A DNA stretch of 64,000 nt from Bradyrhizobium elkanii WSM2783 (GTDB lineage Bacteria > Pseudomonadota > Alphaproteobacteria > Rhizobiales > Xanthobacteraceae), in assembly GCF_000472865.1 (NCBI RefSeq), contig NZ_AXAP01000019.1:47971-111970 (forward strand), given 5' to 3'. This document shows positions 15,230-63,980 of the stretch, one piece after another (position 1 is the first letter of the stretch; every line of letters starts with the position of its first letter). A program made the translations under genes and the position numbers. The notes under the pieces were generated by a model. That model was given only the letters and a program-made list of their open reading frames with translations, was not told where the DNA came from and made no database searches.

Positions 15230-15366
15230 GCTTTGGTGTGCCCGCCGCTCATCCTTAAGAAAAAGGGACTGTTCAGGTTCAAGGATTGGGATTAGAAATG
15301 CGCTGTCTGCCGGACCTGCAAACCAAGATGCAAGCTGATTTTCGCGATCTCTTCCGAGTGGTAGCG

Positions 15367-25656: not shown

Positions 25657-25704
25657 CGGCACTCCGTTTCTGCACTTCGCCGGCATTCCGCCGGCGGCGT
25701 GTCG

Positions 25705-26511
25705 TTATATTGCGGCTTCGACCGCCATCGCGCTATAGGCGTGCCAGGTGCCGTGCCCGAGCAGGGGAAACACGATGATCAGGCCCAGCATTCCAGTGGC
25801 AAGGGAGAGCAGGAACAGTGCAAGCGCAATGGCACCCCAGGTCAGCATCACGGTCAGGTTGTTCCAGACCAGCGCCATACTCGAGCCCATGGCGGTGAGG
25901 GCGTCAACGCGCTTGTCGAACATCATGGGAATTGAAAACGCGCTGATGGCAAACGAGAAGGCCGCGAACAGTCCGCCGACGGCACTTCCGACAATGAGCA
26001 TCGCCCAGCCGACCGGCGTGGTGAATAGCATCGGTGCGATATACTCGAGGCCGGGAAACGGCACCAGGCCGAAAAACAACGCGTAGATGATCACCGCCGC
26101 GCGCATCCATGTGATCATCAAAAGGCACAACAGGACGCCCACGAACAGGATCTGTCCGCCGCATCGCGGCCTGACGAAGATCATGTTCGCGAGATTGACG
26201 GGCAGGCCGGCGGCGAGGCGGCGGCTTTTTTCATACAGGCCGATTGCGAGGATCGGGCCCACCACCATAAAGCCGGCGAACGCAGGAAATAGGATGTAAT
26301 CCCACTCTAGGCGAAACAGGCCGTCGACAATCGCAACGGACGCGAGAAAGATCATCAGGCCGTAGCTCAGGCTCGTCATCGGCTGCACGGTCAGGTCGTG
26401 CCAGCCTTTCGTAAGCCATGTGAAGGCATCGGCGGGAACAAGTAAGCGATGCCAGCGGTTTTTTGTGGGAAGCGGAGGCAAGACGGTCGGGATCATGGTC
26501 ATGTCGATCAT
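25705..26511 (-). CDS. DUF2189 integral membrane protein
   Basis: A 268-residue polytopic protein with about six hydrophobic segments and the family features LTKGWHDLTVQPMTSLSYGL near the N-terminus, GPILAIGLYEKSRRLAAG and PMMFDKRVDALTAM. DUF2189 proteins are often annotated as cytochrome oxidase subunit I-like, but their role is unproven. It sits between ccoP and ccoI where many operons have ccoG and ccoH, overlapping the preceding small gene by four bases (ATGA). A role in oxidase assembly is inference from position. Confidence 0.88.
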   Translation of the reverse strand: MIDMTMIPTVLPPLPTKNRWHRLLVPADAFTWLTKGWHDLTVQPMTSLSYGLMIFLASVAIVDGLFRLEWDYILFPAFAGFMVVGPILAIGLYEKSRRLAAGLPVNLANMIFVRPRCGGQILFVGVLLCLLMITWMRAAVIIYALFFGLVPFPGLEYIAPMLFTTPVGWAMLIVGSAVGGLFAAFSFAISAFSIPMMFDKRVDALTAMGSSMALVWNNLTVMLTWGAIALALFLLSLATGMLGLIIVFPLLGHGTWHAYSAMAVEAAI

Positions 26512-26753
26512 TCCACCTGCGCTTTGGTTGTCATGGAGGGTTTAGATGAACACGACGAGGTCGCCGCGCTGAAGCTATTGGTGCCGTTGCCTTCGCCGTG
26601 CGGGAGATGAGCGACGCAGTCCGGCTGTGAGGATACAGCCACGTAAAGCAGATGCGCATTGGCGGCGGCAAACACGATCAGTCCGATGCCGATCGACAGC
26701 CAGACGATGGACTTCGCCTTCCACCCACCATGGGATGCCGCCGCGCTGCTCAT
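26508..26753 (-). CDS. Small single-pass membrane protein in the cco operon
   Basis: An 81-residue protein with one hydrophobic helix (IVWLSIGIGLIVFAAANAHL), then LYVAVSSQPDCVAHL with cysteines at the presumed outer side. The start overlaps the end of ccoP and the stop overlaps the DUF2189 start, so it is translated as part of the operon. It occupies a position where a CcoH-like protein might be expected but is much shorter. I do not recognise a family with confidence. Confidence 0.75.
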   Translation of the reverse strand: MSSAAASHGGWKAKSIVWLSIGIGLIVFAAANAHLLYVAVSSQPDCVAHLPHGEGNGTNSFSAATSSCSSKPSMTTKAQVE

Positions 26754-27631
26754 GGGGCGGGCATCCTCTCATCGAAAAGGTAGAGCGCCAGGATCTTGCG
26801 ATCGAGCGGTGTCAGGCGGCCCTCCCATGACGGCATGTGGCCCTGCCGCCCATTCCACAGCGTGTTCGTGATCGTCTGCACGTCGCCGCCGTAGATCCAG
26901 AACTTATCGGTCAGGTTCGGTGCGCCCACGTCGCTGTTGCCCTTAGCGTCCTCGCCATGACATGCGGCGCAATTGGCAGCGAATATCTCCTTGCCAGCGT
27001 CCACATCGCCGGGCTTTGCGGTCTTCGCGGTGGATGGATCGGAGAGCGAGCGCACGAAGGCTACCACCTTGTCGATATCAGCTGGCTGGAGAATCTGATC
27101 ATGGCCGAAAGCCGGCATCTGCGAGGTGCGGCTGTCGGGATGCGGCGAGTTGATGCCGACGCGGATGGTCTCGGCAATGGCGTCCGGATCGCCGCCCCAC
27201 AGCCATGAGGTGGTGGTCAGGTTCGGGAAGCCGTGGCCACCCTGCGCGTTGAGCCCATGGCACGCGGCGCAATTGTCGCCGAACACGGTGCGGCCGGTCT
27301 GACGCACGATGTTCATCAGCGCAGGATCGGCTTGAATCTCCCGAAAGCTTTTGGCCTCGATCTGCTTAGTCCATGCGCTGCGGCCGAAGGCGGCTCGCTT
27401 CAGCGAGTCCTGTACGATGTTGCGTTGGTCGAGGCCGAGCAGTCCTTTGGTGTAGCTGACGCCGAGTGGCCACGCGGGCATCAACACCCAGTAGCCGACC
27501 GAAAAGACAAAAGCAATCAACAGGAAAAAGTACACCGCGCGCGGAACGGGTGTGTTCAATTCCTTGATGCCGTTCCACTCGTGCCCGGTCGTGAGATAAC
27601 CGGTGTAGTAGTCGCGTTCTTCTACCGCCAT
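26750..27631 (-). CDS. ccoP: cbb3-type cytochrome c oxidase subunit III CcoP (dihaem cytochrome c)
   Basis: A 293-residue membrane-anchored electron-entry subunit. The N-terminus MAVEERDYYTGYLTTGHEWN and ELNTPVP leads to a membrane helix (AVYFFLLIAFVFSVGYW) and two cytochrome c domains, each with a CAACH haem site (CAACHGLN and CAACHGED) and later methionines (SQMPAFG; GHMPSW). ATG 27631 fits the family; the open frame upstream overlays ccoQ. The gene overlaps ccoQ by ten bases and the following small gene by four. Confidence 0.96.
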   Translation of the reverse strand: MAVEERDYYTGYLTTGHEWNGIKELNTPVPRAVYFFLLIAFVFSVGYWVLMPAWPLGVSYTKGLLGLDQRNIVQDSLKRAAFGRSAWTKQIEAKSFREIQADPALMNIVRQTGRTVFGDNCAACHGLNAQGGHGFPNLTTTSWLWGGDPDAIAETIRVGINSPHPDSRTSQMPAFGHDQILQPADIDKVVAFVRSLSDPSTAKTAKPGDVDAGKEIFAANCAACHGEDAKGNSDVGAPNLTDKFWIYGGDVQTITNTLWNGRQGHMPSWEGRLTPLDRKILALYLFDERMPAP

Positions 27632-27792
27632 GGTCCATCCTCGTTGTGCAGGACCGACTTCGCGGCGCGATCGAACGCCTTTTTGTTCGACGGCCAATAG
27701 GCGTAGACGACGGTGATGATCGAGAGTGCGATCAGATAGAACAAGCCGAACGACTTCGAGAACCACACCAGCGTACCGTGTCCGAGATCCAT
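27622..27792 (-). CDS. ccoQ: cbb3-type cytochrome c oxidase subunit IV CcoQ
   Basis: A 56-residue protein beginning MDLGHGTLVWFSKSFGLFYL, with one membrane helix (FYLIALSIITVVYAYWP), followed by NKKAFDRAAKSVLHNEDGPW. This is the usual CcoQ/FixQ pattern; the subunit stabilises the complex. It starts two bases after the ccoO stop and its end overlaps the ccoP start. Confidence 0.93.
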   Translation of the reverse strand: MDLGHGTLVWFSKSFGLFYLIALSIITVVYAYWPSNKKAFDRAAKSVLHNEDGPWR

Positions 27793-27794
27793 GA

Positions 27795-28526
27795 TCACCT
27801 CGCAGCTTTTGCGACGGATTTGTGCGCCGCGTCGGTCAGGTGGCCGAGCACCTGGAGATAGGCGACCAGGGCGTCCATCTCGGTGAGTTCGCCAGGCCTG
27901 CCGTCGAACGCGCGGACGTTGGTGGCCTTGCCGTAGCGTTGGGTGACGCCATCGGCGTAGGGCGATTCCGGCGCGGCCTGGCCGTAGGCGTCCTTGCTCG
28001 CATTCGCGATCATGTCGTCGGTGTAGGGCACGCCGACGGCGCGCTGGGCCTTCAGGTGCGCGCCGAGATCATCGGTGCGCAGCGTCGTTTTCAGCAACCA
28101 CGAATAGGCGGGCATGACGGAAACGGAAAGCACATCGCGCGGGTTGTTGAGGTGCGCGACGTGCCATTCGTCGGAATATTTGCTGCCAATGCGTGCGAGG
28201 TCCGGTCCCGTGCGCTTCGAGCCCCACAGCATCGGATGGTCGTATTTCGATTCAACCGCGAGCGAGTAGGGGCCGTAGCGTTCGACCTCATCGCGCAGGG
28301 TGCGGATCATCTGGGAATGACAGGCGTAGCAGCCTTCGCGGATGTAGATGTTGCGGCCCGCCAGTTCGAGCGGCGTGTAGACGCGCATGTCGGGCGCGTC
28401 TTCCACCGTCTGGTGGATGGTGAAGAGCGGCGCGATTTCTACGAGGCCGCCGATGCTGGCCACAAGGATGATGCCGAGAGTGAGGCCGATGGCTTTGCGT
28501 TCGAGCCGATAGTGCAGTCCGAACAC
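27795..28526 (-). CDS. ccoO: cbb3-type cytochrome c oxidase subunit II CcoO (monohaem cytochrome c)
   Basis: A 243-residue subunit with an N-terminal membrane anchor (IGLTLGIILVASIGGLVEIA) and a periplasmic cytochrome c domain. The haem site is in REGCYACHSQMIRTLRDEVE, with MLWGSKRTGPDLARIG and VMPAYSWL supplying ligand regions. It passes electrons between CcoP and CcoN. It starts three bases after the ccoN stop. No disruption is seen. Confidence 0.96.
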   Translation of the reverse strand: MFGLHYRLERKAIGLTLGIILVASIGGLVEIAPLFTIHQTVEDAPDMRVYTPLELAGRNIYIREGCYACHSQMIRTLRDEVERYGPYSLAVESKYDHPMLWGSKRTGPDLARIGSKYSDEWHVAHLNNPRDVLSVSVMPAYSWLLKTTLRTDDLGAHLKAQRAVGVPYTDDMIANASKDAYGQAAPESPYADGVTQRYGKATNVRAFDGRPGELTEMDALVAYLQVLGHLTDAAHKSVAKAAR

Positions 28527-28529
28527 GGC

Positions 28530-30183
28530 TTACTCTCCCGGTTGAAGGACGGTCCCGCCGAGCACCGGCGATGGCATGTCGGTTGCAGATTCATGCACCT
28601 TGCGAATGCCGGTTCTGATCGTCATCCAGATGTTGTAGCCGCCAACGATCGCGCCGATCAGGAACAGCAGACCGCCGATGGCGCGCGCGATGTAGTAGGG
28701 ATGCATCGCAATCAGCGAGTCGACGAAAGTATAAGCGAGGGTGCCGCTCTCATTGTAGGTCCGCCACATCAGCCCCTGGATGATGCCGGAATTCCACATG
28801 GAAGACGTAAACAACGGCGCCGGCAAGGGCGAGCCAGAAATGCACCTCGACGAGCCGCGGCGAATACATGCGGTCGCGTTTCCAGAGCCACGGCACGATG
28901 GCATAGATCGATCCGAACGTGATCATCGCCACCCATCCGAGCGCGCCGGCATGGACGTGGCCGACGGTCCAGTCGGTGTAGTGGGAAAGCGAGTTGACGG
29001 GTCGGATGGCGAGGAATGATCCTTCGAAGGTGGTGATACCATAGAACACCGCCGCCACCATCATGAAGCGCAGCGTCGCATCGTCCCGCACCTTGTCCCA
29101 TGCGCCGTTCAGCGTCAGCAGCGCGTTAGCGGCGGACGCCCACGACGGAATCAGCAGCATTAGCGAGAACGTCATGCCCAGCGTCTGCACCCATTGCGGT
29201 AACGCCGTGTAGTGCAGGTGATGCGAGCCCGCCCACATGTAAAAGAAGGTGATGCCCCAAAAGCTGATGATCGACATCCGGTAGGAATAAATCGGCCGTC
29301 TGGCGCGTACCGGCACGAAGTAGTACATCATGCCGAGGAAGCCGGCGGTGAGGAAGAAGGCGACGGCATTGTGACCGTACCACCATTCGGTCATGGCATC
29401 CTGCACTCCGGAGAACAGCGAGTAGCTCTTGGCGCTGCCGAACGAGACGGGGACGGCGAGGTTGTTGACGATGTGCAGGATCGCGATCACCAGGATGAAG
29501 GCCATGTAGTACCAATTGGCCACATAGATGTGCGGTTCCTTGCGTCGTGCGAGCGTGCGCAGATAGATGGCGAAGTATACGACCCACACCACCAGCAGCC
29601 AGATATCCGCGTACCATTCTGGCTCCGCGTATTCCTTGGACTGGGTGATACCCATCATGTAGCCAGTAACGGCGAGCACACAGAACAGATTGTAGCCGAG
29701 CAGAACGAACCACGGGCTGAGCTGATCGGGCAGGCGCGCGCGCGAGGTCCGCTGTAGTACGTAGTAGGATGTGGCGATCAGTGCGTTGCCGCCGAAGCCG
29801 AAGAGCACGCTGGTGGTGTGAACGGGACGCAGCCGCCCGAAGCTGGCCCAACCGGCATCAAAAGTGAAGTCGGGCTTCACCAAGAGCCACGCCACCCAGT
29901 CACCTATAAAGAGGCCGAACACGACCCATATCATCGCGAGAATAATGCCGAATCTCGTCGGATCGTCGTAATAGTGGTTGAGGCGTTCGTCGCCGGGTTC
30001 AGGATCGTAGTAAACCGAAATGACTTTGAATATCCCGGCAAGCGCTGCGACCCCGATGAGCGCCCCGTGAATGCCGAGCGGATCGTCCTTGCCTGCTATG
30101 CCAAATATCAATCCACACAGCGCGAGCCCGAGCAGGATCAATAGCGCGTATTGACGTTCAGCCTTGGTCAGTTGTCCGATCAT
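28530..30183 (-). pseudogene. ccoN: cbb3-type cytochrome c oxidase subunit I CcoN, apparent frameshift near the C-terminus
   Basis: This is the catalytic haem-copper subunit. The first part (from ATG 30183, with GGAAGG ten bases upstream) reads normally through twelve-helix oxidase sequence (GYMMGITQSKEYAEPEWY; HNAVAFFLTAGFLGMMYYF; FYMWAGSHHLHYTALP; VGHVHAGALGWVAMITFG) up to VHFWLALAGAVVYV near 28810. The family continuation SSMWNSGIIQGLMWRTYNE, then IAMHPYYIARAIGG, is in another frame to the stop at 28530. Comparison with the expected VYVSSMW suggests two missing bases (or one extra) around 28798-28806. Either the gene is broken and the oxidase inactive, or this is a sequence error; the otherwise intact operon favours checking the read. 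Confidence 0.88.
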
Positions 30184-30347
30184 TGTCTTGCTGCCTTCCA
30201 AAACCGGAATTCCGATTTGGTCCGCATTGAAAACTCAAAGGTCAGGTCAAATCGCCTGGTGGTCCGGTCGCCTGCGTCGGCCGCAGCTGCGTAGCGACGT
30301 AACGTCCAAATGGATAACGTCTTGCTGACGCCTCGCTCAACGAGTCG

Positions 30348-39470: not shown

Positions 39471-40010
39471 GGTCGGCTTGAGGGGCGCTCCCTACACCTT
39501 CGTATCATTCCCTGGCCCCTTTGGATGGCCGGCGCATTACCCACGTACAATTGAGCGGCTGACCGCGATCGTCCTAGGCTGTACGCGTAAGAAAAGCGGA
39601 CAGACCCATGCAGTGCGACGGTGGAAAAGGATGATCGACGAACGGCGACGATAGTACCAACAGGAGACTACGATGCCCCATTGCTCCGATAATCTTAGAT
39701 CTGGCAGTGCCGCGCGATGCGCAGTGTGTGATGGCAAGTTTGGTCTCGTCCGGCACTACGCGTGGCGAACCCCGCTTTGTTCCAAGAAGTGCGTCGATCG
39801 TTTCAGAACCCGCAGGGAAAGTGATCGCAATTGGGTGAGCTGGCTCCAAATCACCTTCGACCAGCCGCCCGAGAACCGCGCGAGGGCTTTATGACGGTCC
39901 AGATCTCACAACGATACAAGGAATATTTAGAGACAGCACAGACTTTGCTCCGCGCCGCCAAAAACATGACCGACTCAGCGATTGCGGGTCAGCTCAAGGC
40001 CTTGGCCGCT
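39471..40010 (+). repeat. Two-gene small-protein cassette, copy 2 of 3
   Basis: Leader, gene A and gene B as in 60247-60830, with high similarity to that copy. The match ends inside gene B at about 40005, where unrelated sequence replaces its last codons. Confidence 0.85.
39673..39894 (+). CDS. Small four-cysteine protein, cassette gene A copy 2
   Basis: A 73-residue protein, MPHCSDNLRSGSAARCAVCD, then GKFGLVRHYAWRTPLCSKKC and a basic/helical tail ending PENRARAL. C-x2-C and C-x3-C pairs suggest one zinc site. ATG 39673 follows AGGAG by six bases. Its stop overlaps the ATG of gene B (ATGA), so the pair is translationally coupled. No known family recognised. Confidence 0.75.
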   Translation: MPHCSDNLRSGSAARCAVCDGKFGLVRHYAWRTPLCSKKCVDRFRTRRESDRNWVSWLQITFDQPPENRARAL

Positions 40011-40079
40011 AACATGTCACGTTTTGAAGGGTGTCAGCTCGCGAGAAAGAAGCATGCCTCTCGAATTCTGCACCATTGA
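39891..40079 (+). CDS. Small helical protein, cassette gene B copy 2 (C-terminus replaced)
   Basis: The first 38 residues (MTVQISQRYKEYLETAQTLL, then NMTDSAIAGQLKALA) match copy 3; the remaining residues (ANMSRFEGCQ...) are unrelated because of a junction near 40005. Translation is coupled to gene A by an ATGA overlap. Function unknown and this copy may be impaired. Confidence 0.6.
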   Translation: MTVQISQRYKEYLETAQTLLRAAKNMTDSAIAGQLKALAANMSRFEGCQLARKKHASRILHH

Positions 40080-40251
40080 AGCGCTGAACCTGCGCCCCGG
40101 CTCCAAGGATCTGGAAGCATTCAACGTCGAGCGTGTGCGCGGCTACCTCGAGTGCAATCTCGGCTGCACAAAGAAGGAAGTGATCCACGCGCTAGGCCTG
40201 AATCAGCGCACGGTGGCCAAGGCCATCAAGATCATCCGCGCACGATCGTGA
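40054..40251 (+). CDS. Small helix-turn-helix-like protein
   Basis: A 65-residue protein from ATG 40054: MPLEFCTIEALNLRPGSKDL, then EAFNVERVRGYLECNLGCTK, KEVIHALGLNQRTVAKAIKI. The second half has the look of a winged or simple helix-turn-helix (KKEVIHALGLNQRTVAKAI). It could be a small DNA-binding protein or the N-terminal part of a larger regulator. It overlaps the replaced tail of gene B copy 2. Confidence 0.55.
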   Translation: MPLEFCTIEALNLRPGSKDLEAFNVERVRGYLECNLGCTKKEVIHALGLNQRTVAKAIKIIRARS

Positions 40252-40403: not shown

Positions 40404-40596
40404 ATGGGCGAAGTTGTTCGATTTGTCCCCAAAGTCTGAGCGCGAGCGGGCCCGTCTAATTGCAGAAGCCCGCGCGATATATGACAGCATCTTTCCGCCG
40501 GCTGATCCAGCCAGCGAGCAGCAGGACAACGCACCGATAAGTCATAAGGTCAGCGGCCCCATTGCCCATCGTAGCGACGGGGTTCTCCTGTCGTGA
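40404..40596 (+). pseudogene. Small hypothetical protein, probable one-base insertion near the start
   Basis: ATG 40404 reads MGEVVRFVPK then stops at 40437, while the adjacent frame from a TTG at 40393 continues SERERARLIAEARAIYDSIF, PPADPASEQQ to 40596. Removing one G at about 40434 joins them into MGEVVRFVPKSERERARLIA, a more natural start. Either the gene is frameshifted or translation begins at the TTG. No family assigned. Confidence 0.5.
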
Positions 40597-40802
40597 TCAA
40601 GATCATCGCCTTGCTCTGCAGTCTCTCCTCTCCGGAAAATTGCCACGAGCAGACCGTCACCACCTCGGACTTCGCTGACGTCTCGATGCAGTCCTGCCTG
40701 ATGGGCGCGCCGCAGCTTGCCGAGTGGATGAAGCAGCATCCCGCCGAGCGCCTAGCGGCGTGGCACTGCGTGATTGGCAAACAGGATGGCAGGGGAGCTT
40801 AG
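40593..40802 (+). CDS. Small hypothetical protein coupled to the preceding frame
   Basis: A 69-residue protein (MIKIIALLCSLSSPENCHEQ, then DVSMQSCLMGAPQLAEWMKQ, HPAERLAAWHC) whose GTG start overlaps the stop of the previous frame (GTGA). Three or four cysteines and the length suggest a small soluble protein. Function unknown. Confidence 0.6.
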   Translation: MIKIIALLCSLSSPENCHEQTVTTSDFADVSMQSCLMGAPQLAEWMKQHPAERLAAWHCVIGKQDGRGA

Positions 40803-41284
40803 GGAGGAAAGCCGCTTCCACGGGTGCTTTGAAATCGCTTAATCACAATGGCTGCGATTTCAGGCCTATGCACCTGGTCTGCATCGGTCCGGCTGCCGTT
40901 GTGGCCGTTGTCCGGGTTCAGCGAGGCGTCCAGCTCATCAACTTCGTGGCCCTTGTCGTCGATGCCGTTTCGATTTGAGACAATAGCGTGGCGGCACGCT
41001 TGTCGAGATCATCGACTTTTGCGAGATTGCCGCGGTGCGAACGTCTCGTTTCTTTCGCTGGCCGAAATTTTGGCAAGCAAATCGGCAAAGTTTATCATTT
41101 TGCCTCCCAGTGCCGCCGTCGCCTGTGCCCCAGGAACGCTGGCGAGCGCCACCGGAGGCACTTGCGTGATGTGGATTGTCATTCGGCGTCCAAAATTTGC
41201 ACGCCGATTGACACGCCGGCACGAACTGTACTTCTTCCACTTCGGAATGATCGTTCGCGGCTTTTCACAACTGACGTCGCGAGC
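40803..41284. other. No clear gene (about 480 bases)
   Basis: Short frames on both strands. A minus-strand segment (MTIHITQVPPVALASVPGAQ, then ALGGKMINFADLLAKIS) looks protein-like but is embedded in frames that also cover the IS66 remnant; I cannot assign it. Confidence 0.35.
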
Positions 41285-44921: not shown

Positions 44922-45999
44922 TTTGGTCTCGCGGGTTTTGCGGAAGACATCATTGCTGAAGATGACTCATGAGAAGTTTCCAGGTGATCGAGCAATATCG
45001 TCGCCCTTCTCGTTGAGAGCGAGGTGTCTCGCATCCAGGATGTCACCATCCCAGAGTGCGAGCACATGCTGAAATGAAAATTGGGAATGCTGCCGATAAG
45101 GACTGGTTATCGGGCGGTAACAGCAACTCTCAATCTACAGCGGCAGTCTGAAATCTTCCCGTCAGCATTTGGTGCACGCGTGGGAAGCAGTTCAGTCAAT
45201 GCCCCCGGCTCGGATTTAGCTTTGCCTTCGAACGTTACCCGCCCCGCTATAGTCGATACCGCATACTGAAGTTTCATTTTGCGAGACGTCGAGCCCGACG
45301 CACCGCGCTCATGGTAGCGCTGGGAATCGGTTGATCGCGAGAGCTCGACGATAATAGGACGACCTTAGTCCAGAATCGTCGATCGCAATTACGTCATAGT
45401 TTCCAAATTTGCATGCCGAACGACACCGTCGTGCGAACGCTGCACATCCAAGACGGGATGACGGATGACGGCTTCGGATATCGCCGGAAAGCCTGGCGCG
45501 CGTCGATGTGGTTGCCCAACAGCTCCTGGAGACGCTCCTAGAGCCCGACTGCCATGATCGAGTCGCTGTTGGAAGACGAAGTCGACCCGCGTCGGATCCT
45601 GGGGATAGATCGTCGGAGCAAAGCCGCTGCTTCGCCCGAAACACGTCTAGTCCATCCGGGCGAAAGTTTCAGGTGGATGGTCAGCTTCGAGGTCGTGCTC
45701 GGTTCAATCTCTGGCATCCAGTAATCTCCCTCGCGCTCAACCCCCGTGGTTCGCGGACGTCAAAACCGGTTAAGCCGGTCAGGCCATTCGACTGCGCTGA
45801 TACGTGGCAAAATGTTCCATTCAGATGCGCCAACGGCATCGAAACGATAACCGATTGTAATTGGCGAAGCTGCTACGGATGCATTGTATCACGCGATAGG
45901 CGCGCCACCGACTTTATTGAGCACTAGCCGTTGGCAATCAATCTAGAAAGAGCTCTCGACCCACACATCCGCGGCTGTCGATTTCAGGAGATCGGAAAC
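44922..45999. other. About 1.08 kb without an intact gene; holds an IS110 remnant
   Basis: Apart from the IS110-like fragment at 45115-45305 nothing is recognised. The last 80 bases lead into ccmC and contain its ribosome-binding site (AGGAG at 45986-45990). Confidence 0.45.
45115..45305 (-). pseudogene. IS110-family transposase N-terminal remnant
   Basis: VGLDVSQNETSVCGID resembles the start of IS110 DEDD transposases, and the following segment TFEGKAKSEPGALTELLPTR in an adjacent frame matches the next family region. The rest of the gene is missing. Confidence 0.5.
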
Positions 46000-46773
46000 T
46001 TGAAGGTCAGTTTCATCGCCTACGCCAATCCCACCAATTTTCTGCACGTTGCCGCGAAGCTGCTGCCGTGGCTGTGGGGGTTGACGGCGTTAGCCTTTGC
46101 GCTCGGCCTCTTCGGTGCGTTCACGGCACCACCCGACTACCAGCAGGGCGAGATGGTGCGCATCATGTACATTCACGTTCCGGCCGCCTGGGTGGCGATG
46201 CTGGCCTATACGCTGATGGCGATCTCGGCGGTCGGCTCGTTGGTTTGGCGCCATCCGCTTGCGAATGCGGCGCAGAAGGCTGCCGGGCCGCTCGGCGCCG
46301 CCTTCACTTTTACTTGCCTCGTCACCGGCTCCCTCTGGGGCAAGCCGATGTGGGGCACGTACTGGGTGTGGGACGCCCGGCTTACTTCCGTGCTGGTCCT
46401 TTTCCTGATCTATCTTGGTCTGATCGGACTCTGGCAGACAATCGAGGACACCAGCAGGGCCGCGCGGGCCGCATCGATCATGACGCTGGTCGGGTTCATC
46501 AATATTCCTATCGTCAAATTTTCGGTCGATTGGTGGAATACCCTCCACCAGCCAGCCTCTGTGTTCCGGATTGAAGGCTCGACGATCGCCGGCCCGATGC
46601 TATGGCCACTGCTCGTCATGTCGCTTGCATACACGCTTCTATTCGCGACGCTCCACGTTATGGCGATGCGCAACGAAATCATGCGGCGCCGCGCTCAGCG
46701 GCTCGCGATCATGCTGGCGGCCGTTGGCGAATCCGCTGGGGCCCGACTGCAATCGGTCGAAACTGTTTCCTGA
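46000..46773 (+). CDS. ccmC: Haem exporter membrane protein CcmC
   Basis: A 257-residue six-helix protein that presents haem to CcmE for c-type cytochrome maturation. The tryptophan-rich haem-handling motif is GTYWVWDARLTSVLVLFLIY, flanked by the histidine-containing MYIHVPAAWVAMLAY and WWNTLHQPAS. I start at TTG 46000 (MKVSFIAYANPT) because AGGAG lies nine bases upstream; the frame is open back to 45931. It heads the plus-strand ccmC-D-G-I-E-F-H run. Confidence 0.93.
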   Translation: MKVSFIAYANPTNFLHVAAKLLPWLWGLTALAFALGLFGAFTAPPDYQQGEMVRIMYIHVPAAWVAMLAYTLMAISAVGSLVWRHPLANAAQKAAGPLGAAFTFTCLVTGSLWGKPMWGTYWVWDARLTSVLVLFLIYLGLIGLWQTIEDTSRAARAASIMTLVGFINIPIVKFSVDWWNTLHQPASVFRIEGSTIAGPMLWPLLVMSLAYTLLFATLHVMAMRNEIMRRRAQRLAIMLAAVGESAGARLQSVETVS

Positions 46774-46780
46774 GCGTGCG

Positions 46781-46930
46781 ATGGCTCAGCATGGCGGGTT
46801 CATCGTGGCAGCTTATCTGGTGACGGGCACGATCCTGATCGGGACGATCGCGGCGGTCCTCTTCGACTATCGGCTTCAGCTGCATGCGCTGGCCCGCCTT
46901 GCACCAGGCCGTCTCGGCAATCGCTCATGA
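46781..46930 (+). CDS. ccmD: Haem exporter protein CcmD
   Basis: A 49-residue single-helix protein: MAQHGGFIVAAYLVTGTILI, GTIAAVLFDYRLQLHALARL. The pattern HGGFI..AY followed by one membrane helix and a basic cytoplasmic tail is diagnostic. CcmD stabilises the CcmABC-CcmE complex. It starts eight bases after ccmC and its stop overlaps the ccmG start (ATGA). Confidence 0.9.
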   Translation: MAQHGGFIVAAYLVTGTILIGTIAAVLFDYRLQLHALARLAPGRLGNRS

Positions 46931-47550
46931 ACGACACTCCTCCCTCGAAATTCCTCTCACCTGATATCGCGGCCACTCGGCACCGCTTGGTCCGCATTGT
47001 GGCGGCGGTCCCGAGTCTGGTTTTCCTCGGAATTGCCGCACTGCTCGCGGTGCGGCTTGGCGTCGACAACCCGTCACTCGTGCCGTCCGCCCTGATCGGT
47101 AGGCCAGTGCCGCAATTCGCGTTGGCGCCGCTTGAAGGGCTCGCCACGCCCGGGCCGCCCGGCCTGTCGAGCGCCGACCTGAAGGCAGGGCATGTGACGC
47201 TTGTGAACGTGTTCGCGTCCTGGTGTGTCGAATGTCATAGCGAGCACGAGGCGCTCATGGCCTTGTCGCGTGAACCGGCGCTGCGGCAGCATGGGGTAAA
47301 GCTTACTGGCATCATCTACAAGGACGATCCAGGGAGTGCGCGGAGCTATCTCAATGCCAAGGGGAATCCGTTCGCACAGGTCGGCATTGACCCGTCCGGC
47401 AGGACCGGTATTGATTTCGGCGTCTATGGCGTCCCCGAGACCTACGTAGTCAAAGGAAACGGGACCATCGCCTACAAGCTGGTGGGCGGCATCTCGGACG
47501 CGACGCGTCCCGCTTTGATGGCGGCAATCGCAAGCGCGCAACGGCCATGA
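46927..47550 (+). CDS. ccmG: Thiol:disulfide interchange protein CcmG/DsbE
   Basis: A 207-residue periplasmic thioredoxin-fold protein with an N-terminal membrane anchor (SLVFLGIAALLAVRLGVDNP). The active site is W99-C-V-E-C103 in LVNVFASWCVECHSEHEALM; most relatives have proline at the fourth position (WCVPC), so the redox potential may differ. Later segments YKDDPGSARSYLNAKGNPFA, GVYGVPETYVV and GTIAYKLVGGI are typical. It reduces apocytochrome cysteines. Translationally coupled to ccmD. Confidence 0.93.
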   Translation: MNDTPPSKFLSPDIAATRHRLVRIVAAVPSLVFLGIAALLAVRLGVDNPSLVPSALIGRPVPQFALAPLEGLATPGPPGLSSADLKAGHVTLVNVFASWCVECHSEHEALMALSREPALRQHGVKLTGIIYKDDPGSARSYLNAKGNPFAQVGIDPSGRTGIDFGVYGVPETYVVKGNGTIAYKLVGGISDATRPALMAAIASAQRP

Positions 47551-47764
47551 CGGCTACTTTGCTAAGTCTCGATCCATATACGACAGGTCCAACAAGTCTG
47601 ATCTTGTCCGTACGCGCGGCGTCACTGGCCTGCGCCACGGGCAGGCGATCGATCGGCTCGAAGGAGCTGCACTACAGGAGCATTTTGGTCGTAGAGAATG
47701 GCGAGCGTACCATCTTTTGCAAGGTCACGCGTTCGCGGAAGTCGGCGGTAGAGGACCTTGAGAC

Positions 47765-48655
47765 ATGCTTTGGCTTGCGTTCGCAATGATGACGGCCGCG
47801 GTCTCGCTGGCGCTGCTCCGGCCGCTCTCGGCGCGGCAGCAAGAGCGTAACCCGCGCGCTTCCGACATCGCTTTCTATCGAAGCCTATTGGTTGAAACGG
47901 ATGATGATGTCCGCCGAGGCTTAGTCGCGGCTGAGGATGCCGCGGCCGCGCGAGCCGAAATTGCGCGCCGGCTGCTCGCCTCCGTCGACTCCGTGCGGAA
48001 GGATCGGCCGCATGCATCGGTGCGACCGAGGCGCATCCGCGCCGTTCTGACGATTGTTGTGGTGCTGCCGTTTATCGCTCTGGCGCTTTATCTTAGGGTG
48101 GGCGCGCCTAACCAACTTGACATGCCAGCATCACGCCGGACGGGTGGAGAGTTCAACCCCACGGCTGTAATCCCCAGGATCGGAGCGCAACACGCGGCCG
48201 ACCTCAACGACGGACACGGCCTCCAGGCGATCGCGGTCGAGCAAGACGGCAGCACAGAAAAAGCGAGGCAACTCTGGGAGGCGCTACGGGCGGATTCGCT
48301 ATCCGACGCGCCGTGGATGGATGCTGTGCATCCGCATTTGGCTGCTATTGCCGGAGCGCCGCAGCCGGGCGTGGAGGCCGCGCGCTCCGGCTTAGACAGT
48401 ACTGGCGTTGCGGCGCCGCCTCCGGAGCAGAGGGCGGAGGTGACCAGTGCGATGGTGGAGGGACTCGCTGGGAAGCCCGCGAAGGACGATCACGATCTCG
48501 ACGGGTGGCTGAATTGATCAGGGCCTACGCGGTCGCGTGTAAGCAAGAGAAGGTCGAAGAGGCCGTGGCAAATGCGCGGGTTAGGCATTCGGACAACATG
48601 AAGCGTTGGCACGCGTTGATGAGTTCGTCAAGCAGCTCGGGCTGAAAGGACAAAT
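47765..48655 (+). pseudogene. ccmI: Cytochrome c maturation protein CcmI (CycH), frameshifted
   Basis: From ATG 47765: an N-terminal helix (MLWLAFAMMTAAVSLALLRP), the arginine/glutamate helix (FYRSLLVETDDDVRRGLVAA), a second membrane helix (IRAVLTIVVVLPFIALALYL) and TPR-like sequence (LQAIAVEQDGSTEKARQLWE; MVEGLAGKPAKDDHDLDGWL). The stop at 48517 interrupts; the family continuation LIRAYAVACKQEKVEEAVAN is in another frame, and the end EFVKQLGLKGQI is in a third, running into ccmE. CcmI normally holds apocytochrome for ligation. Either the gene is broken or the sequence has errors; the TPR region also appears short. About 215 bases separate it from ccmG. Confidence 0.8.
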
Positions 48656-48656
48656 T

Positions 48657-49112
48657 TTGGCAAGAAAGAAAAGGCGCCTTCTCCTCATCGGCGCGGCTGG
48701 CATAACTTTGGCGATCGCGATGAGTCTCGTACTCTTTGCGCTACGCGACAGCATCGTCTTCTTCTACGGGCCGACCGAAATGGCCGAGAAAGCGCCGCCG
48801 TTGGGAACGCGGCTGCGCATCGGCGGGCTGGTGGAGCAGGGCTCACTGATACATGAGGGCCCGTCGACCGTCACGTTCGCGGTGACCGACCTTAAGAAGC
48901 ACATCAAGGTCATCTACACAGGATTGCTACCCGATCTCTTCCGGGAAGGGCAGGGTGTCGTGGCCGAGGGCACGGTGGAAGGTCCAAGCCTCTTCCATGC
49001 CGACACTGTGCTCGCCAAACATGATGAGCGCTACATGCCCAAGGACGTGGCCGACGGGCTCAAACGGCAGGGTATTTGGCGTGACGGCGAGCAATCCGCG
49101 CAGACACAATAG
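48657..49112 (+). CDS. ccmE: Cytochrome c-type biogenesis haem chaperone CcmE
   Basis: A 151-residue membrane-anchored protein: basic start (MARKKRRLL), one helix (LIGAAGITLAIAMSLVLFAL), then the OB-fold domain (RLRIGGLVEQGSLIHEGPST; VIYTGLLPDLFREGQGVVAE). The covalent haem-binding His122 and Tyr126 lie in LAKHDERYMP. The start is TTG 48657, inside the end of the broken ccmI. It carries haem from CcmC to CcmF/H. Confidence 0.93.
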   Translation: MARKKRRLLLIGAAGITLAIAMSLVLFALRDSIVFFYGPTEMAEKAPPLGTRLRIGGLVEQGSLIHEGPSTVTFAVTDLKKHIKVIYTGLLPDLFREGQGVVAEGTVEGPSLFHADTVLAKHDERYMPKDVADGLKRQGIWRDGEQSAQTQ

Positions 49113-49154
49113 AGTTGCCGTTTATGGTTCATATCAGCGTCCAGGAGTGACAGG

Positions 49155-51152
49155 GTGATCGTCGAAACGGGACATTATGCGCTCGCCCTAGCCTTAGCGG
49201 TCACACTGCTGCAGTCGGTTCTGCCGATCTGGGGTACTCGCCGCGGCGATCTCGGGCTCGCCTCGATGGCGGTGCCTTCCGCGATTACCCAATTTGCGCT
49301 GGTGGCCTATGCCTTTGCGGCGTTGACCTACGCTCATGTGGTGTCCGACTTCAGTCTCGTAACGGTCGTTGAGAATTCGCATACCACCAAGCCGCTCGTC
49401 TACAAGATCGCGGGCGTCTGGGGCAATCATGAAGGATCTATGCTGCTCTGGGTCTTAATCCTGGCGATCTTCGGAGCCGCGGTGGCGAGCTTTGGCCGCG
49501 GCATGGCAGATGAACTGCGGGCCAATACCCTGGCGGTCCAGGGCTGGATCGCGTTTGCCTTCCTACTGTTCATTCTGCTCACATCCGACCCCTTCGCGCG
49601 CCGATTTCCCGCACCCTTCGAGGGGCAAGACCTCAATCCGTTGCTTCAGGACCCTAGCCTCGCGATACATCCGCCGCTGCTCTATCTCGGCTATGTCGGC
49701 TTCTCGATTGTGTTCTCCTTCGCGGCGGCGGCGCTGATTAGCGGCCGCGTCGATGCCGCCTGGGCCCGATACATTCGACCATGGGCACTGATCGCCTGGA
49801 GTTTCCTGACGCTCGGCATCGCGATGGGTTCTTACTGGGCCTATTACACCCTGGGCTGGGGTGGATTCTGGTTCTGGGATCCGGTGGAGAATGCCTCGTT
49901 GATGCCCTGGCTCGCGGGCACGGCGCTGCTGCATTCTGCGGCCGTCATGGAAAAGAGAGACGCGCTCAAGATCTGGACCATCTTCCTCGCGATTCTCACC
50001 TTCTCGCTTTCGCTGCTCGGCACGTTCCTGGTCCGCTCGGGCGTGCTTACCTCGGTGCACTCCTTCGCCAGCGACCCATCACGCGGCCTCTTCATCCTCG
50101 TGATCCTTATCCTCTTTATCGGCGGGTCGCTCGTTCTCTTCGTTTGGCGCGCTCCGGCCTTGCGACCCGGCGGCCTGTTCGCGCCTGTGTCTCGGGAAGG
50201 TGCGCTCGTGATCAACAACCTGATGCTGACCATCTGTTGCGGTATCGTCCTCACCGGTACCCTTTACCCTCTGGTACTTGAGACCTTGACCGGCGACAAG
50301 ATTTCGGTCGGCGCGCCGTTTTTCAATCTGACGTTCGCCCCGTTGGTCCTTCCCATCCTGCTATTAATGCCGATCGGCCAGTCGCTTTCTTGGAAGCGCG
50401 GCGACTTTCTCGGCGCAGCGCAACGGGTGATGGTTGCGGCGGCGGCGGGCGTGGCCCTTTCACTAGTTCTGGTGGCGGCCCTGCGTGGCGGGCCGGTCCT
50501 CGCTCCGATAGGTGTGGGCTTGGCGGTCTATCTGATCCTTGGATCGTCCAGCGAACTAGTGTCGCGGATCTGGGCCAAAGGGCAGGCCTGGCGGGTAACT
50601 TTGGCCCGCGCGACTGGGCTTCCGCGTTCGGCTTGGGGCACGGCTATCGCCCACGCGGGGCTCGGCGTGACACTGTTGGGGCTCGCCGCAACCGGTTGGG
50701 GCGTGGAACAGATCGCGGCGGTCAAGCCGGGGCAGACGGTCGATCTCGGACCCTATCAAGCCACCATAGTCAAGCTTGAGGAGCGACAGGGCCCCAACTA
50801 TTCCGAAATAGGGGTCCGTGCGATTATCAGCCAGGATGGGTCGACGGTAACAACGATTGAACCGGCCAAGCGCACGTTTCCGGTGCGCCAGACTACGATA
50901 ACGGAAGCCGGCATCGTGACCCTAGGTTTCGGGCAGGTCTACATCTCGCTCGGAGACCAGCACCCGGATGGTTCTATTGATGCCCGCATGTTCTGGAAGC
51001 CGCTCGTTACGTTAATCTGGATTGGCGCGATCGTGATGGCGATCGGAGGAATTGTGTCGTTGTCCGATCGCCGTCTCAGGATCGGCTTTGCGCGTCGTGC
51101 CATTCGCGGCCGCCTCTCTGGCGATCCTGTAGCGCCGCAGCCCGCAGAATGA
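49155..51152 (+). CDS. ccmF: Haem lyase subunit CcmF
   Basis: A 665-residue multi-pass membrane protein that ligates haem to apocytochrome c. The haem-handling WWD motif is GWGGFWFWDPVENASLMPWL; other landmarks are GVWGNHEGSMLLWVLIL, FEGQDLNPLLQDPSLAIHPP and LTSVHSFASDPSRGLFIL. GTG 49155 is supported by AGGAG seven bases upstream. Its end overlaps the ccmH start (ATGA). No defect seen. Confidence 0.96.
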   Translation: MIVETGHYALALALAVTLLQSVLPIWGTRRGDLGLASMAVPSAITQFALVAYAFAALTYAHVVSDFSLVTVVENSHTTKPLVYKIAGVWGNHEGSMLLWVLILAIFGAAVASFGRGMADELRANTLAVQGWIAFAFLLFILLTSDPFARRFPAPFEGQDLNPLLQDPSLAIHPPLLYLGYVGFSIVFSFAAAALISGRVDAAWARYIRPWALIAWSFLTLGIAMGSYWAYYTLGWGGFWFWDPVENASLMPWLAGTALLHSAAVMEKRDALKIWTIFLAILTFSLSLLGTFLVRSGVLTSVHSFASDPSRGLFILVILILFIGGSLVLFVWRAPALRPGGLFAPVSREGALVINNLMLTICCGIVLTGTLYPLVLETLTGDKISVGAPFFNLTFAPLVLPILLLMPIGQSLSWKRGDFLGAAQRVMVAAAAGVALSLVLVAALRGGPVLAPIGVGLAVYLILGSSSELVSRIWAKGQAWRVTLARATGLPRSAWGTAIAHAGLGVTLLGLAATGWGVEQIAAVKPGQTVDLGPYQATIVKLEERQGPNYSEIGVRAIISQDGSTVTTIEPAKRTFPVRQTTITEAGIVTLGFGQVYISLGDQHPDGSIDARMFWKPLVTLIWIGAIVMAIGGIVSLSDRRLRIGFARRAIRGRLSGDPVAPQPAE

Positions 51153-60115: not shown

Positions 60116-60441
60116 ACTCCGGTTGAGCGTGAAGGCGATCTCTAACGTAGCTCCAATGCCATGAACTTCCACGTTCGGCGGCATAGCGGACCGCGCCCGG
60201 ACTTGCCGCTGGCCAATTCGGTCGCGAACGGCCCGCTGCGCAAGTGGCCGGCTTTAGGGGCGCGCTCGCTACACCTTCGTAACATTCCCTGCCCCCTTTG
60301 GATGGCCGGCGCATTACCTACGTTCAATTGAGCGGCTGACCGCGATCGTCCTAGGCTGTTCGCGTAGGAAAAGCCACAGACCCATGCAGTGCGACGGTGG
60401 AAAAGTATGATCGACGAACAGCGACGATAGAGGAGACTACG

Positions 60442-60663
60442 ATGCCTCATTACTCCGATAATCTTAGATCTGGCAGTGCCGCGCGATGCGCGGTTTGTGA
60501 TGGCAAGTTTGGTCTCGTCCGGCACTACTCGTGGCGAACCCCGCTTTGTTCCAAGAAGTGCGTCGATCACTTCAGAACTCGCAGGGAAAGTGACCGCAAT
60601 TGGTTGAGATGGCTCCAAATCGCCTTCGACCAGCTGCCCGAGAATCGCGCGAGGGCTTTATGA
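60442..60663 (+). CDS. Small four-cysteine protein, cassette gene A copy 3
   Basis: A 73-residue protein: MPHYSDNLRSGSAARCAVCD, GKFGLVRHYSWRTPLCSKKC, VDHFRTRRESDRN, then a tryptophan-rich tail ending PENRARAL. C-x2-C / C-x3-C spacing suggests a single zinc-stabilised fold with a basic surface, possibly nucleic-acid or protein binding (inference). AGGAG six bases before ATG 60442; stop overlaps gene B start. Confidence 0.78.
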   Translation: MPHYSDNLRSGSAARCAVCDGKFGLVRHYSWRTPLCSKKCVDHFRTRRESDRNWLRWLQIAFDQLPENRARAL

Positions 60664-60830
60664 CGGTTCAGATCTCACAACGAGGCAAGAAATATCTAGA
60701 GATGGCACAGACTTTGCTCCGCGCCGCTAAAACCATGACCGACTCAGCGATTGCGGGTCAGCTTAAGGCCCTTGCCGACGACTACCAGCGGCGAGCTGAG
60801 AAAGCTTCGCATGTTGATGCGGATGAATGA
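60660..60830 (+). CDS. Small helical protein, cassette gene B copy 3
   Basis: A 56-residue protein: MTVQISQRGKKYLEMAQTLL, RAAKTMTDSAIAGQLKALAD, DYQRRAEKASHVDADE. It should form one or two amphipathic helices. Translation is coupled to gene A by ATGA, and the pairing is kept in all three copies, so the products probably act together. Function unknown. Confidence 0.78.
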   Translation: MTVQISQRGKKYLEMAQTLLRAAKTMTDSAIAGQLKALADDYQRRAEKASHVDADE

Positions 60831-60871
60831 ATTTCCTGACTTCACACAGAAAATCCGGGATTGGGTGTGAG

Positions 60872-61231
60872 ATGAACAATCGGATTTGGTATGCAGCGCT
60901 TGTTGTATTCACTGTCATGCCGCCGATTTATACAATCGGTCACGCCCGGGCCCACGATTATCAGCGCCCTGAGTTGAACAGTTGGTATGAGAGTTTGCAC
61001 AGCGGCAAGGGGCCCTGCTGCGATGGCAGCGATGCGAAGCGCATTGATGACGCCGATTGGGAAACTAAGAATGGTCACTATCGCGTACGCATTGATGGCG
61101 AGTGGGTTGATGTTCCAAACGACGCTGTCGTGGATGGACCGAACCGCGCTGGTCGCGCGATGGTCTGGCCCTACTTTCTGAACGGCGCTTTCGTTGGCGT
61201 CAGATGCTTCATGCCGGGGAGCATGGGCTGA
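60872..61231 (+). CDS. Small exported hypothetical protein
   Basis: A 119-residue protein from ATG 60872: signal peptide (MNNRIWYAALVVFTVMPPIY, cleavage near ARA), then HDYQRPELNSWYESLHSGKG, PCCDGSDAKRIDDADWETKN, GHYRVRIDGEWVDVPNDAVV and VWPYFLNGAFVGVRCFMPGS. The Cys-Cys and a later Cys suggest a periplasmic disulfide-bonded domain. The type (GKGxCC...DWxTxxGHYRVRxxGxWxxVP) recurs in rhizobial genomes, to my recollection without assigned function. Confidence 0.7.
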   Translation: MNNRIWYAALVVFTVMPPIYTIGHARAHDYQRPELNSWYESLHSGKGPCCDGSDAKRIDDADWETKNGHYRVRIDGEWVDVPNDAVVDGPNRAGRAMVWPYFLNGAFVGVRCFMPGSMG

Positions 61232-61897: not shown

Positions 61898-61928
61898 CCG
61901 GCGCGAACAGTTGGAGACCGGTTCAGCG

Positions 61929-63980
61929 ATGGAGCTCATGATCCCGCCCGGCCGCCTCGACCGTCCGGTCGACCACGAGACGGACCACGTGCTCGGCCCC
62001 GCCGATGCCGAGATCACGCTCGTCGAGTACGGCAGCTACGCGTGCCCGCACTGCAGGGCTGCCAACGAGCGCATAACGCAAGCACGCGACCAACTCGGCG
62101 ACCGCGTCTGCTACGCCTTCCGGCACAGGCCGCTCACGGACAACCGCCTTGCGTTTCGGGCCGCCGAGCTCGCTGAGCTTGCCCAGACACCCAAGGCGTT
62201 CTGGTCCGCGCACGTCAAGCTGATGACGAGGTCGATGCAGCTCACAGAGGACGACCTCGTCGCGGTGGCCGCCGACCTCGGCGTGAACGCCGACTTCGCG
62301 GTCGGCGATAGCGACGCCGTGCGGCGCGCGAGGACGAGGGTGGAGGCGGACATCGCAAGCTCTTGCGCAAGCGGCGTGAGGTTCACGCCGACCTTCTACA
62401 TCAACCGCCGGCGCTACGATGGACCCTGGGACGAGAGCTCTCTCGTCGACGCGATGCTTGGCACACTCGGCCACCGCGTCCGTACGGCAGCCCTGGACTT
62501 CGCGAGTTGGAGCCCGTCCGCCGGCATTTTGCTTGTCCTCGCGACCGCGACGGCGATCGTCATGACGAACTCGCCGATCGGGCCGGCGTTCGAGGCGTTC
62601 TGGCGCCAGGAGCTCGGCGTGAGCTTGGGCGACGCAGCCTTTCAGATGTCCATCCTCCATTGGGTCAACCACGGCCTTTTGACGGTGTTCTTCCTCGTCG
62701 TGGGATTGGAAGTGAAGCGCGAGATGACAGTCGGCCACCTCGCAAGCCGCCGCTCCGCCGCGCTTCCGATCGCGGCCGCGTTCGGCGGCATGGTCGTGCC
62801 GGCGCTTCTGTATGCACTGATCATCCCTGCGGGGACGTGGTCGCACGGGTGGGGCGTTCCGATGGCGACCGATACCGCGTTCGCGATTGCCTTGATCGCC
62901 GTGATGGGCGACCGCGTCCCCATCGAGCTGCGCATCTTCCTCACCGCGGCGGCCATCGTCGACGACATCGGTGCGATCGTCGTCGTCGCTGTGTTCTACT
63001 CCGGCGATATCCATCCGGGCTACCTGGCCGCGGCCGCGACGACAGTCGTTGCGCTGGCGCTGCTGAGCCGATCGAGGGTCTATCTGCTGTCGCCCTACAT
63101 CCTGTTGGGTGTCGCGTTGTGGGGGCTCGTCTACGCGGGCGGCCTCCACGCTACGCTGGCCGGCGTGATACTTGCGCTGTTCATTCCGACGCGGCCGCCC
63201 GCCAACCTGGCTGCCCTGATGACGCAGGCCAGCACCATCATCGCCTCCGAGGCCCGGCACGACGGTGAGGTTCTCAGGCACGGCCCCTCCACCCCGGCGT
63301 TACACGCGCTCGACGCCATCTATGACAGACTTGAATCGCCCGCCGACCGGCTGCTGCGACACGCGGGCGCGCGGTCGAGCTACGCTGTCCTCCCGATCTT
63401 CGCACTGGCGAATGCGGGCGCGGCAATCGACCCGGGCGTCTTTGTTGGGCATGGCTGGCTCATGGCCGCGATCGTCGCTGGCCTCGCCATCGGAAAGCCG
63501 CTCGGCGTCTTCCTCGCGGCCGCCGCGGCCGTGCGCGCAGGCCTAGCCGTCAAGCCGGCGGAGTACACATGGCGGCAGTTGGCCGGGGCAGGAACCCTCG
63601 CAGGCATCGGCTTCACGATGTCGCTTTTCATCGCCGGGCAGGCGTTTCCAAGCGCCGCCGACTTCTCGGCCGCCAAGATCGCCGTGTTCGCCGCGTCGAT
63701 TCTTTCGGCCGTCGTTGGGACTGCCCTGCTCTGGGGAGCTTCCCGCCAGGAGCTTATCGAAGAGGCGCCGCAGAGCGCCAGCATGCAAGTGAATGGGAGG
63801 TCTTTCGATGATTCTACCTACCGGTACGACAGTGGCGGTCGCCGACGGGGAGACGATCCGCCTGTTCTACAACACAGGCGTGAAACCTGGGGTGCACTTG
63901 GTCGAGATCACGGCGGCTCCGCCTGCGCCCGCCCGCTCAGGCTCGGGTGCGCGGCATCACACCGGCTCTGCCAACCCTGA
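61929..63980 (+). CDS. Na+/H+ antiporter NhaA with N-terminal DsbA-like thioredoxin domain
   Basis: The N-terminal 190 residues form a DsbA-like domain (AEITLVEYGSYACPHCRAAN with CPHC; VRFTPTFYINRRRYDGPWDE). Residues about 195-620 form a twelve-helix NhaA antiporter (LTVFFLVVGLEVKREMTVGH; GWGVPMATDTAFAIALIAVM; AAAIVDDIGAIVVVAVFYSG, with the paired aspartates; LPIFALANAGAAI; GIGFTMSLFIAGQAF). Such fusions are known. ATG 61929 is my choice; a TTG at 61911 is also open. The frame runs about 60 residues past the usual NhaA end and overlaps the next gene by 173 bases, so the original stop may be lost. Confidence 0.93.
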   Translation: MELMIPPGRLDRPVDHETDHVLGPADAEITLVEYGSYACPHCRAANERITQARDQLGDRVCYAFRHRPLTDNRLAFRAAELAELAQTPKAFWSAHVKLMTRSMQLTEDDLVAVAADLGVNADFAVGDSDAVRRARTRVEADIASSCASGVRFTPTFYINRRRYDGPWDESSLVDAMLGTLGHRVRTAALDFASWSPSAGILLVLATATAIVMTNSPIGPAFEAFWRQELGVSLGDAAFQMSILHWVNHGLLTVFFLVVGLEVKREMTVGHLASRRSAALPIAAAFGGMVVPALLYALIIPAGTWSHGWGVPMATDTAFAIALIAVMGDRVPIELRIFLTAAAIVDDIGAIVVVAVFYSGDIHPGYLAAAATTVVALALLSRSRVYLLSPYILLGVALWGLVYAGGLHATLAGVILALFIPTRPPANLAALMTQASTIIASEARHDGEVLRHGPSTPALHALDAIYDRLESPADRLLRHAGARSSYAVLPIFALANAGAAIDPGVFVGHGWLMAAIVAGLAIGKPLGVFLAAAAAVRAGLAVKPAEYTWRQLAGAGTLAGIGFTMSLFIAGQAFPSAADFSAAKIAVFAASILSAVVGTALLWGASRQELIEEAPQSASMQVNGRSFDDSTYRYDSGGRRRGDDPPVLQHRRETWGALGRDHGGSACARPLRLGCAASHRLCQP

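Follow-up and report, generated by a model that had tools for sequence, protein, structure and literature searches.

A two-gene cassette present three times in a 64,000-nt stretch of the Bradyrhizobium elkanii WSM2783 genome (hereafter the window; bases 47971–111970 of contig C91) is, with a probability of about 0.65, an accessory cargo unit resembling the morons of prophages. In this interpretation, a promoter of the host's type precedes two small coupled genes, A and B, followed according to the copy by a third gene, C, or by a gene E and a block F. Prophage morons are cargo genes with their own promoter that sit among phage structural genes, as do lom and bor of lambda. The cassette is like them in that it carries its own promoter-like element, runs opposite to tail genes, and is inserted between tail genes in some phages while being absent from their close relatives. 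It differs from them in that it also occurs on plasmids and in many places on the chromosome, and in that its promoter-like element is common to small RNA (sRNA) genes. A and B would share a putative regulator with accessory alphaR8 sRNAs and other small genes; B would be made together with A by coupled translation, and would bind A and stabilize or steer it. The unit would spread by riding on phages and plasmids and through recombination, without transposition of its own.

Three copies of the cassette in the window

The sequence-only reading had proposed three copies in the order leader, A, B. A DNA search of the whole genome (9.9 Mb, 217 contigs) recovered all three far above chance, with E-values of 3e-308 for copy 3, 1.2e-217 for copy 2 and 2.2e-86 for copy 1; all lie on the plus strand. 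Among them only copy 3 (60247–60830) is intact. Its promoter-like element (60269–60359; 85.9 bits with model R1, and part of a 14-copy own-genome alignment) is followed by gene A (60442–60663), which encodes 73 amino acids with the pattern C-x2-C-x16-C-x3-C in a 34-row alignment, and by gene B (60660–60830; 56 amino acids, supported by alignment and a model with pLDDT 89), whose start overlaps the stop of A as ATGA. An open frame for the optional, secreted-looking gene C spans 60827–61231, with ATG 60872 as its likelier start.

In copy 2, the element (39490–39582; 88.6 bits) precedes an intact gene A (39673–39894) and a gene B (39891–40079) whose tail departs from the family after about codon 44. 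Gene E (40054–40251, 65 amino acids) and block F (40563–40833) follow; they are 92.7% identical over 193 nt and 88.2% identical over 271 nt, respectively, to a viral contig described below (L393). The ATGA overlap claimed for copies 2 and 3 is present in both. Copy 1 has an element at 14568–14661 (68.8 bits), a gene A (14700–14855) broken by an in-frame TAG at 14853–14855 and by 6 missing nucleotides, and a gene B (14912–15229) extended at its C terminus to 105 amino acids. A response-regulator gene (receiver and GerE domains, 15286–16002) adjoins it as part of a conserved locus in which A lies about 40 nt past the element.

A leader of about 190 nt had been described as conserved across the three copies. 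This holds for copies 2 and 3, which are 90.8% identical over 554 nt with A and B included, but not for copy 1, whose leader can be aligned over 95–98 nt at 73–75% identity and whose element-to-A distance is about 40 nt rather than the 85–90 nt seen otherwise. The genome as a whole holds six copies of A, five of them with B next, and one further B that stands alone on contig C171. Gene C, which has no family match above cut-off, recurs after A-B on contig C57 and directly behind an element at C91:36734. Behind the A copy on contig C175 lies what we take to be a methyltransferase-like gene.

The leader is a promoter-like element of fixed geometry

The conserved part of the leader is an element of about 90 bp, in which CCTTCGTAT is followed by 51–52 nt, AATTGAGC, 18 nt and TAGGCT or TAGATA. 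The first 14 copies from the own genome align from a CCTTCGTATC block to TAGGCT/TAGATA, with CTTCGTA (one C nearly so) and CAATTGAG invariant, and similarity dwindles across roughly 35 nt 5′ of the first block. Across the sites collected from Bradyrhizobium genomes, the distance between blocks is 51–52 nt in 73 of the 81 that could be scored (of 103). The usual form, TTGAGC-N18-TAG[GA][CT][TA], has the spacing of a −35/−10 pair of the sigma70 type, as judged from sequence alone; its −10 hexamer is far from TATAAT, and one class of sites has TAACGT in that position. The element looks like a sigma70-type promoter (TTGAGC, 18 nt, TAGGCT/TAGATA), probably with a regulator site upstream, around CCTTCGTAT. 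Copies ahead of other transcripts in the own genome retain 75–81% identity, and both A and the alphaR8 motif start at a few set distances from the element.

Several other readings of the leader were set aside. An open frame in it (PFGWP...AIVLG) had been put forward as the tail of a lost gene; it contains a stop in 66 of 88 copies, and in 42 equally spaced copies the three codon positions differ about equally often (8938/9505/9460), which together refute a protein-coding leader. A dyad like those of FNR or FixK in the −35/−10 spacer fits just 19 of 81 sites and was kept as an idea only. A minus-strand match to the Rfam family STnc250, at 19.9 bits, fell short of the gathering score of 42 and was disregarded. 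The response regulator beside copy 1 was rejected as the common regulator: its relatives, at ≥86% identity, occur in 7 of 60 genomes, the own genome included, as against 43 with elements.

The element precedes sRNA genes as well as A and B

In its own genome the leader is commoner than the A-B pair. A 111-nt leader query gave 14 strong places there, 8 of them without A, and a refined model gave 19 sites at E ≤ 0.002, of which 6 are ahead of A. At E ≤ 0.01 the element is present in 43 of 60 Bradyrhizobium genomes, again counting the own one. We classified what lies downstream at 103 refound sites out of about 149 listed places, stronger ones first. A and B follow at 30 sites, A at a further 9, B alone at 1 and C alone at 2; an alphaR8 RNA follows at 25, a degenerate or alphaR8-like RNA at 5, a second RNA-like class (GAGGCAGG..CCTCCCGG; the class with TAACGT) at 8, and another protein with a CxxC..CxxxC pattern, beginning MKFYRRT, at 7, leaving 16 sites with unclassified DNA. 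The alphaR8 class was assigned by core-motif patterns and is confirmed by Rfam at 14 sites, RF00519 scoring above cut-off behind 14 of the 103.

Accessory copies of the anti-Shine-Dalgarno sRNA alphaR8 (RF00519; MmgR, SisA–D) are the commonest feature behind the element apart from A and B. In the own genome, this sRNA (suhB/mmgR) scores above the gathering score after the element at 4 sites, and 4 of the 7 alphaR8 genes above cut-off have the element. Its top-scoring gene in most sampled genomes has a different promoter and no element, in a comparison made by eye.

The common leader of A/B and sRNA genes suggests that one regulator may act on all of them. Descent alone could also explain it, the leader having been inherited from one duplicated ancestor with no regulator in common, and indeed all copies are related: the 103 sites share descent, 68 remain at <90% identity, and even the flanks, to about 35 nt upstream of the anchor block CCTTCGTA, are weakly alike. 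We consider this explanation quite improbable. Conserved and free columns alternate within the element at fixed spacing, the element persists in front of sRNAs, A/B, C and further genes that are unrelated in their own DNA, and a different promoter, compared by eye, stands before the genus's main alphaR8 gene.

Known sRNA families offer partial parallels, cited here from the sections consulted. MmgR responds to NtrC and AniA (PMC7143759). The Caulobacter alphaR8 siblings SisA–D have unrelated promoters (PMC12559287), unlike the siblings here, which have one element in common with mRNAs. The multi-copy anti-Shine-Dalgarno sRNA NfeR1 (alphar14) of Sinorhizobium has a sigma70-type promoter with a regulator-bound upstream block, an architecture comparable to that of the element; its CTTAGAC-N17-CTATAT consensus and its LsrB and NtrC sites are, however, not the blocks of the element (PMC10746234). 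The consulted parts of the open-access literature on these sRNAs, their promoters, pieces of the element and Bradyrhizobium small proteins, among them the examined parts of PMC5082802 and PMC4842269, describe neither the element nor the pair. According to the sections of PMC4842269 drawn on here, 67% of mapped starts have neither an RpoD-like nor an RpoN-like promoter upstream, so such an element could have escaped notice.

Some of the sites can be described individually. Behind a variant of the element, eight sites (L090–L092, L193–L195, L199 and L202) have a conserved RNA-like stretch, GTCGAGGCAGG..TTCCTCCCGGTCG..CCTGCCTCG, which matches no Rfam family at the gathering score and is perhaps an undescribed anti-Shine-Dalgarno sRNA. 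Seven sites (L181, L184–L188 and L191) have a second small C-x2-C..C-x3-C protein, MKFYRRTPRGPSICIECRRSL..PYCDYDCYLRYR, for which homology to A was not found in a direct comparison (2%). An RNA like BjrC80 (RF02354) lies between the element and either remnants or a copy of A at two sites (L073 and L171); one of the two matches exceeds the gathering score of 80, at 82.9 bits, and one falls short of it, at 63.4 bits. In one genome the element is directly followed by a gene that is presumably methyltransferase-like (L154).

A weakly resembles small zinc proteins and B is a predicted helical hairpin

The two cysteine pairs reported for A, C-x2-C and C-x3-C, are indeed there, and each of the 34 aligned A proteins has all four cysteines. 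An AlphaFold model gives a loose knuckle and a helix at residues 37–71 (pLDDT 69). Fold searches of A and B against the PDB returned no match at E ≤ 0.001; for A there were only weak hits, to chains of MYND, HIT and YacG. Against Pfam, the best match of the 34 members is to zf-AtTam37, in one member (E 0.0017). Weak matches to zf-FCS (PF06467) in 5 of 34 proteins (best E 0.1) and to DUF2116 (PF09889) in 3 of 34 (best E 0.055) do not amount to membership, and the YacG family is absent from the Pfam matches of the 34 at E ≤ 1. Ribosomal uS14 chains were rejected as relatives, the best E in a PDB profile search being 0.063.

YacG, which inhibits gyrase through its zinc finger and C-terminal region (PMC10886550, from the part consulted), is like A in its length of about 65–73 amino acids, its C-x2-C..C-x3-C pattern and its (F/L)CSK(R/K)C block. 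A profile comparison of the Escherichia coli protein with A gave 54% probability over 28 columns, and 4tma chain J, listed under YacG, is among the weak fold matches (E 4.0). Only the knuckle aligns, and A differs from YacG in having a long helix. A resembles YacG and FCS zinc fingers only weakly; it may be a small zinc protein of the treble-clef type, with a helix at its C terminus. As had been read from its sequence, B is short and charged, and the structure prediction gives a confident helical hairpin (pLDDT 89), a shape too simple for naming. The coupling of the genes and the cysteine motif lead us to propose that A binds zinc, that A and B bind each other, and that B stabilizes or steers A.

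Selenocysteine in A was considered and rejected. One in-frame TGA was listed for many relatives in the search of the 60 genomes; at the 20 loci read it is the C-terminal stop of a shorter protein, mostly past QAA or QVA. These 20 loci belong to a second A subfamily, which has no B and often a secreted-looking neighbour.

A and B mostly occur together and are under purifying selection

Sought in other genomes, as the sequence-only reading had advised, the two genes are mostly found together. We examined 79 named A loci, taken from the 80 of 108 that are most like the A subfamily of the window; chosen in this way, the sample is biased towards loci with B. B is next after A in 64 of the 79 and missing in 15. 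The element lies upstream in 55, in 48 of them together with B, and A-B occurs without the element in 16, so that A need not have B beside it, nor the pair an element before it. Stop and start overlap in 59 of 63 A-B pairs, as ATGA in 50 and by one base in 9. From the other side, A is directly upstream in 24 of 29 B loci. Among the 60 genomes, A occurs in 38, B in 24 and both in 23, so 15 genomes have A and no B. Association is therefore the rule, but strict pairing is not.

A has a median dN/dS of 0.33 and B one of 0.23, and the ratio is lower in A-B loci without the element (0.25 and 0.19) than in dispersed A-B loci (0.40 and 0.29). These values show purifying selection on both genes.

Two small coupled genes in many copies, carried by phages and plasmids, call to mind a toxin–antitoxin or inhibitor–antidote pair, in which a YacG-like A would hit gyrase or the ribosome and B would neutralize it; the weak match of A to the gyrase inhibitor (54% probability over 28 columns) would fit this scheme. 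Yet A occurs without B in 15 of the 38 A-bearing genomes and in 15 of the 79 loci, and there is one A-B locus that has been passed on vertically under purifying selection. A also precedes B. In toxin–antitoxin pairs the antidote gene usually comes first. Such a system is therefore an unlikely explanation of the pair.

The ends of the unit do not resemble those of a transposable element

Pairwise comparison of 34 copies gave 527 homologies, of which 489 start no more than 50 nt upstream of the CCTTCGTA anchor. At the right, 233 of 527 end at +525 to +599, the end of B, and smaller groups end with A and with C. One exception to this short homology is copy 2 and the copy at C91:36734, which are alike from −367. 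The concern that the copies are merely parts of larger segmental duplications is thus answered in the negative for most pairs. The proposal that two small-protein genes form a conserved unit, dispersed together with a leader of their own, is supported.

Self-mobility fared differently. A MITE-like or selfish element, its leader-to-B ends recognized by a trans-acting transposase or integrase, would account for sharp homology ends (294 of 527 pairs have their left end 31–50 nt before the anchor, and 233 have their right end at the end of B), for the wider dispersal of the element alone than of the pair, and for a transposase-like frame directly upstream of copy 1, presumably IS630-like. Such an element should bear terminal inverted repeats and a target-site duplication, and neither is in excess. 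At 32 loci (the B end plainly wrong in 2, and B running into C in 2 more), direct repeats at the ends came to 5.88 nt against 5.82 nt at unrelated loci, and inverted repeats 5.66 against 5.75 nt. The right end moreover shifts with the cargo, to the end of A, B or C, and the element keeps set distances ahead of both RNA and protein genes. We regard self-mobility as improbable, and the flanking direct repeats anticipated for a mobile or selfish unit do not rise above the level of unrelated loci.

Phages and plasmids carry the unit

The unit is carried horizontally, on viral contigs and on plasmids. First, IMG/VR holds six viral contigs with the element and A, 93–100% identical across the unit stretch. 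In the two with listed frames, B follows A and then runs into E in one frame. Copy 2 of the window has element-A-B, E and block F in common with this viral unit, in the same order. The unit is an insertion of about 1.4 kb between two tail genes, opposite to their direction. One flank is a minor-tail gene (E 3e-33); the other has a weak tail-family match (E 1e-4) and is, we presume, NlpC/P60-like. A crude hairpin scan gave no convincing terminator for the unit. The exact pattern of the upstream half of the element had no match in viral contigs, and that of the downstream half picked out one short viral contig with the element and an alphaR8 motif. The host of the unit-bearing phages is probably Bradyrhizobium.

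Second, the same tail junction exists without the unit. A sweep of the minor-tail gene gave 32 loci, 30 of them scorable. Six have a gap of 1376–1383 nt with the element; the other 24 lack the unit, and in 19 of these the genes adjoin (gap −27 to −9). An insert-free phage with the same isolate number has flanks 97.2% and 97.4% identical and 27 nt where the other has 1434 nt. Five of the 30 junctions hold other inserts of 315–502 nt with small open frames (390 nt in L414, L415 and L430, 315 nt in L416 and 502 nt in L426), and the junction looks like a cargo hotspot.

Third, A is on 20 plasmid records, 19 from Bradyrhizobium and one from Sinorhizobium chiapasense, of which 14 are predicted to be conjugative. 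At none of these matches is a gene listed (the gene table is incomplete), and A is thus easily missed. The Sinorhizobium plasmid has the element, A and a remnant of B between two response regulators, as around copy 1.

A different genus in the family of Bradyrhizobium has the element, A and B, and in the family beyond Bradyrhizobium 5 of 149 sampled genomes have an element match, four of them weak. In an order-wide sample A occurs in 6 of 297 genomes, all Bradyrhizobium. The 79 named loci are labelled Bradyrhizobium in 77 cases, and the remaining two (L309 and L358) come from one Acidobacteriaceae metagenome-assembled genome and are likely stray Bradyrhizobium DNA.

A possible regulon of mobile cargo

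A bolder reading, which we put forward tentatively as less probable than not, extends the cargo interpretation. One promoter cassette recognized by the host would make small zinc-finger operons (A-B, A-B-C and the MKFYRRT protein; phage-, plasmid- and chromosome-borne) fire together, on one signal, with extra alphaR8 sRNAs that block translation, and A-B might act on the side of gyrase or the ribosome. It would join three separately studied subjects: multi-copy sRNAs, overlooked small proteins and mobile cargo. Fixed in its geometry, the element lends itself to counting in any genome of Bradyrhizobium, so that its regulator can be searched for and the whole set tested together. If true, the reading would show a route by which newly acquired small genes enter a host response, and would give a reason for the extra alphaR8 copies.

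Other genes in the window

Just past copy 3, one frame (61911–63980) matches both thioredoxin/DSBA and Na+/H+ antiporter 1 and is an apparent fusion. Two giant proteins of 1618 and 1979 amino acids (140–4996 and 7230–13169) have Ser/Thr kinase, AAA ATPase, GAF, PAS and histidine kinase ATPase domains. Between the copies, 23377–30201 and 45931–51152 hold heavy-metal P-type ATPase and cytochrome c assembly genes together with parts of a cbb3-type oxidase (FixP-like, COX1).
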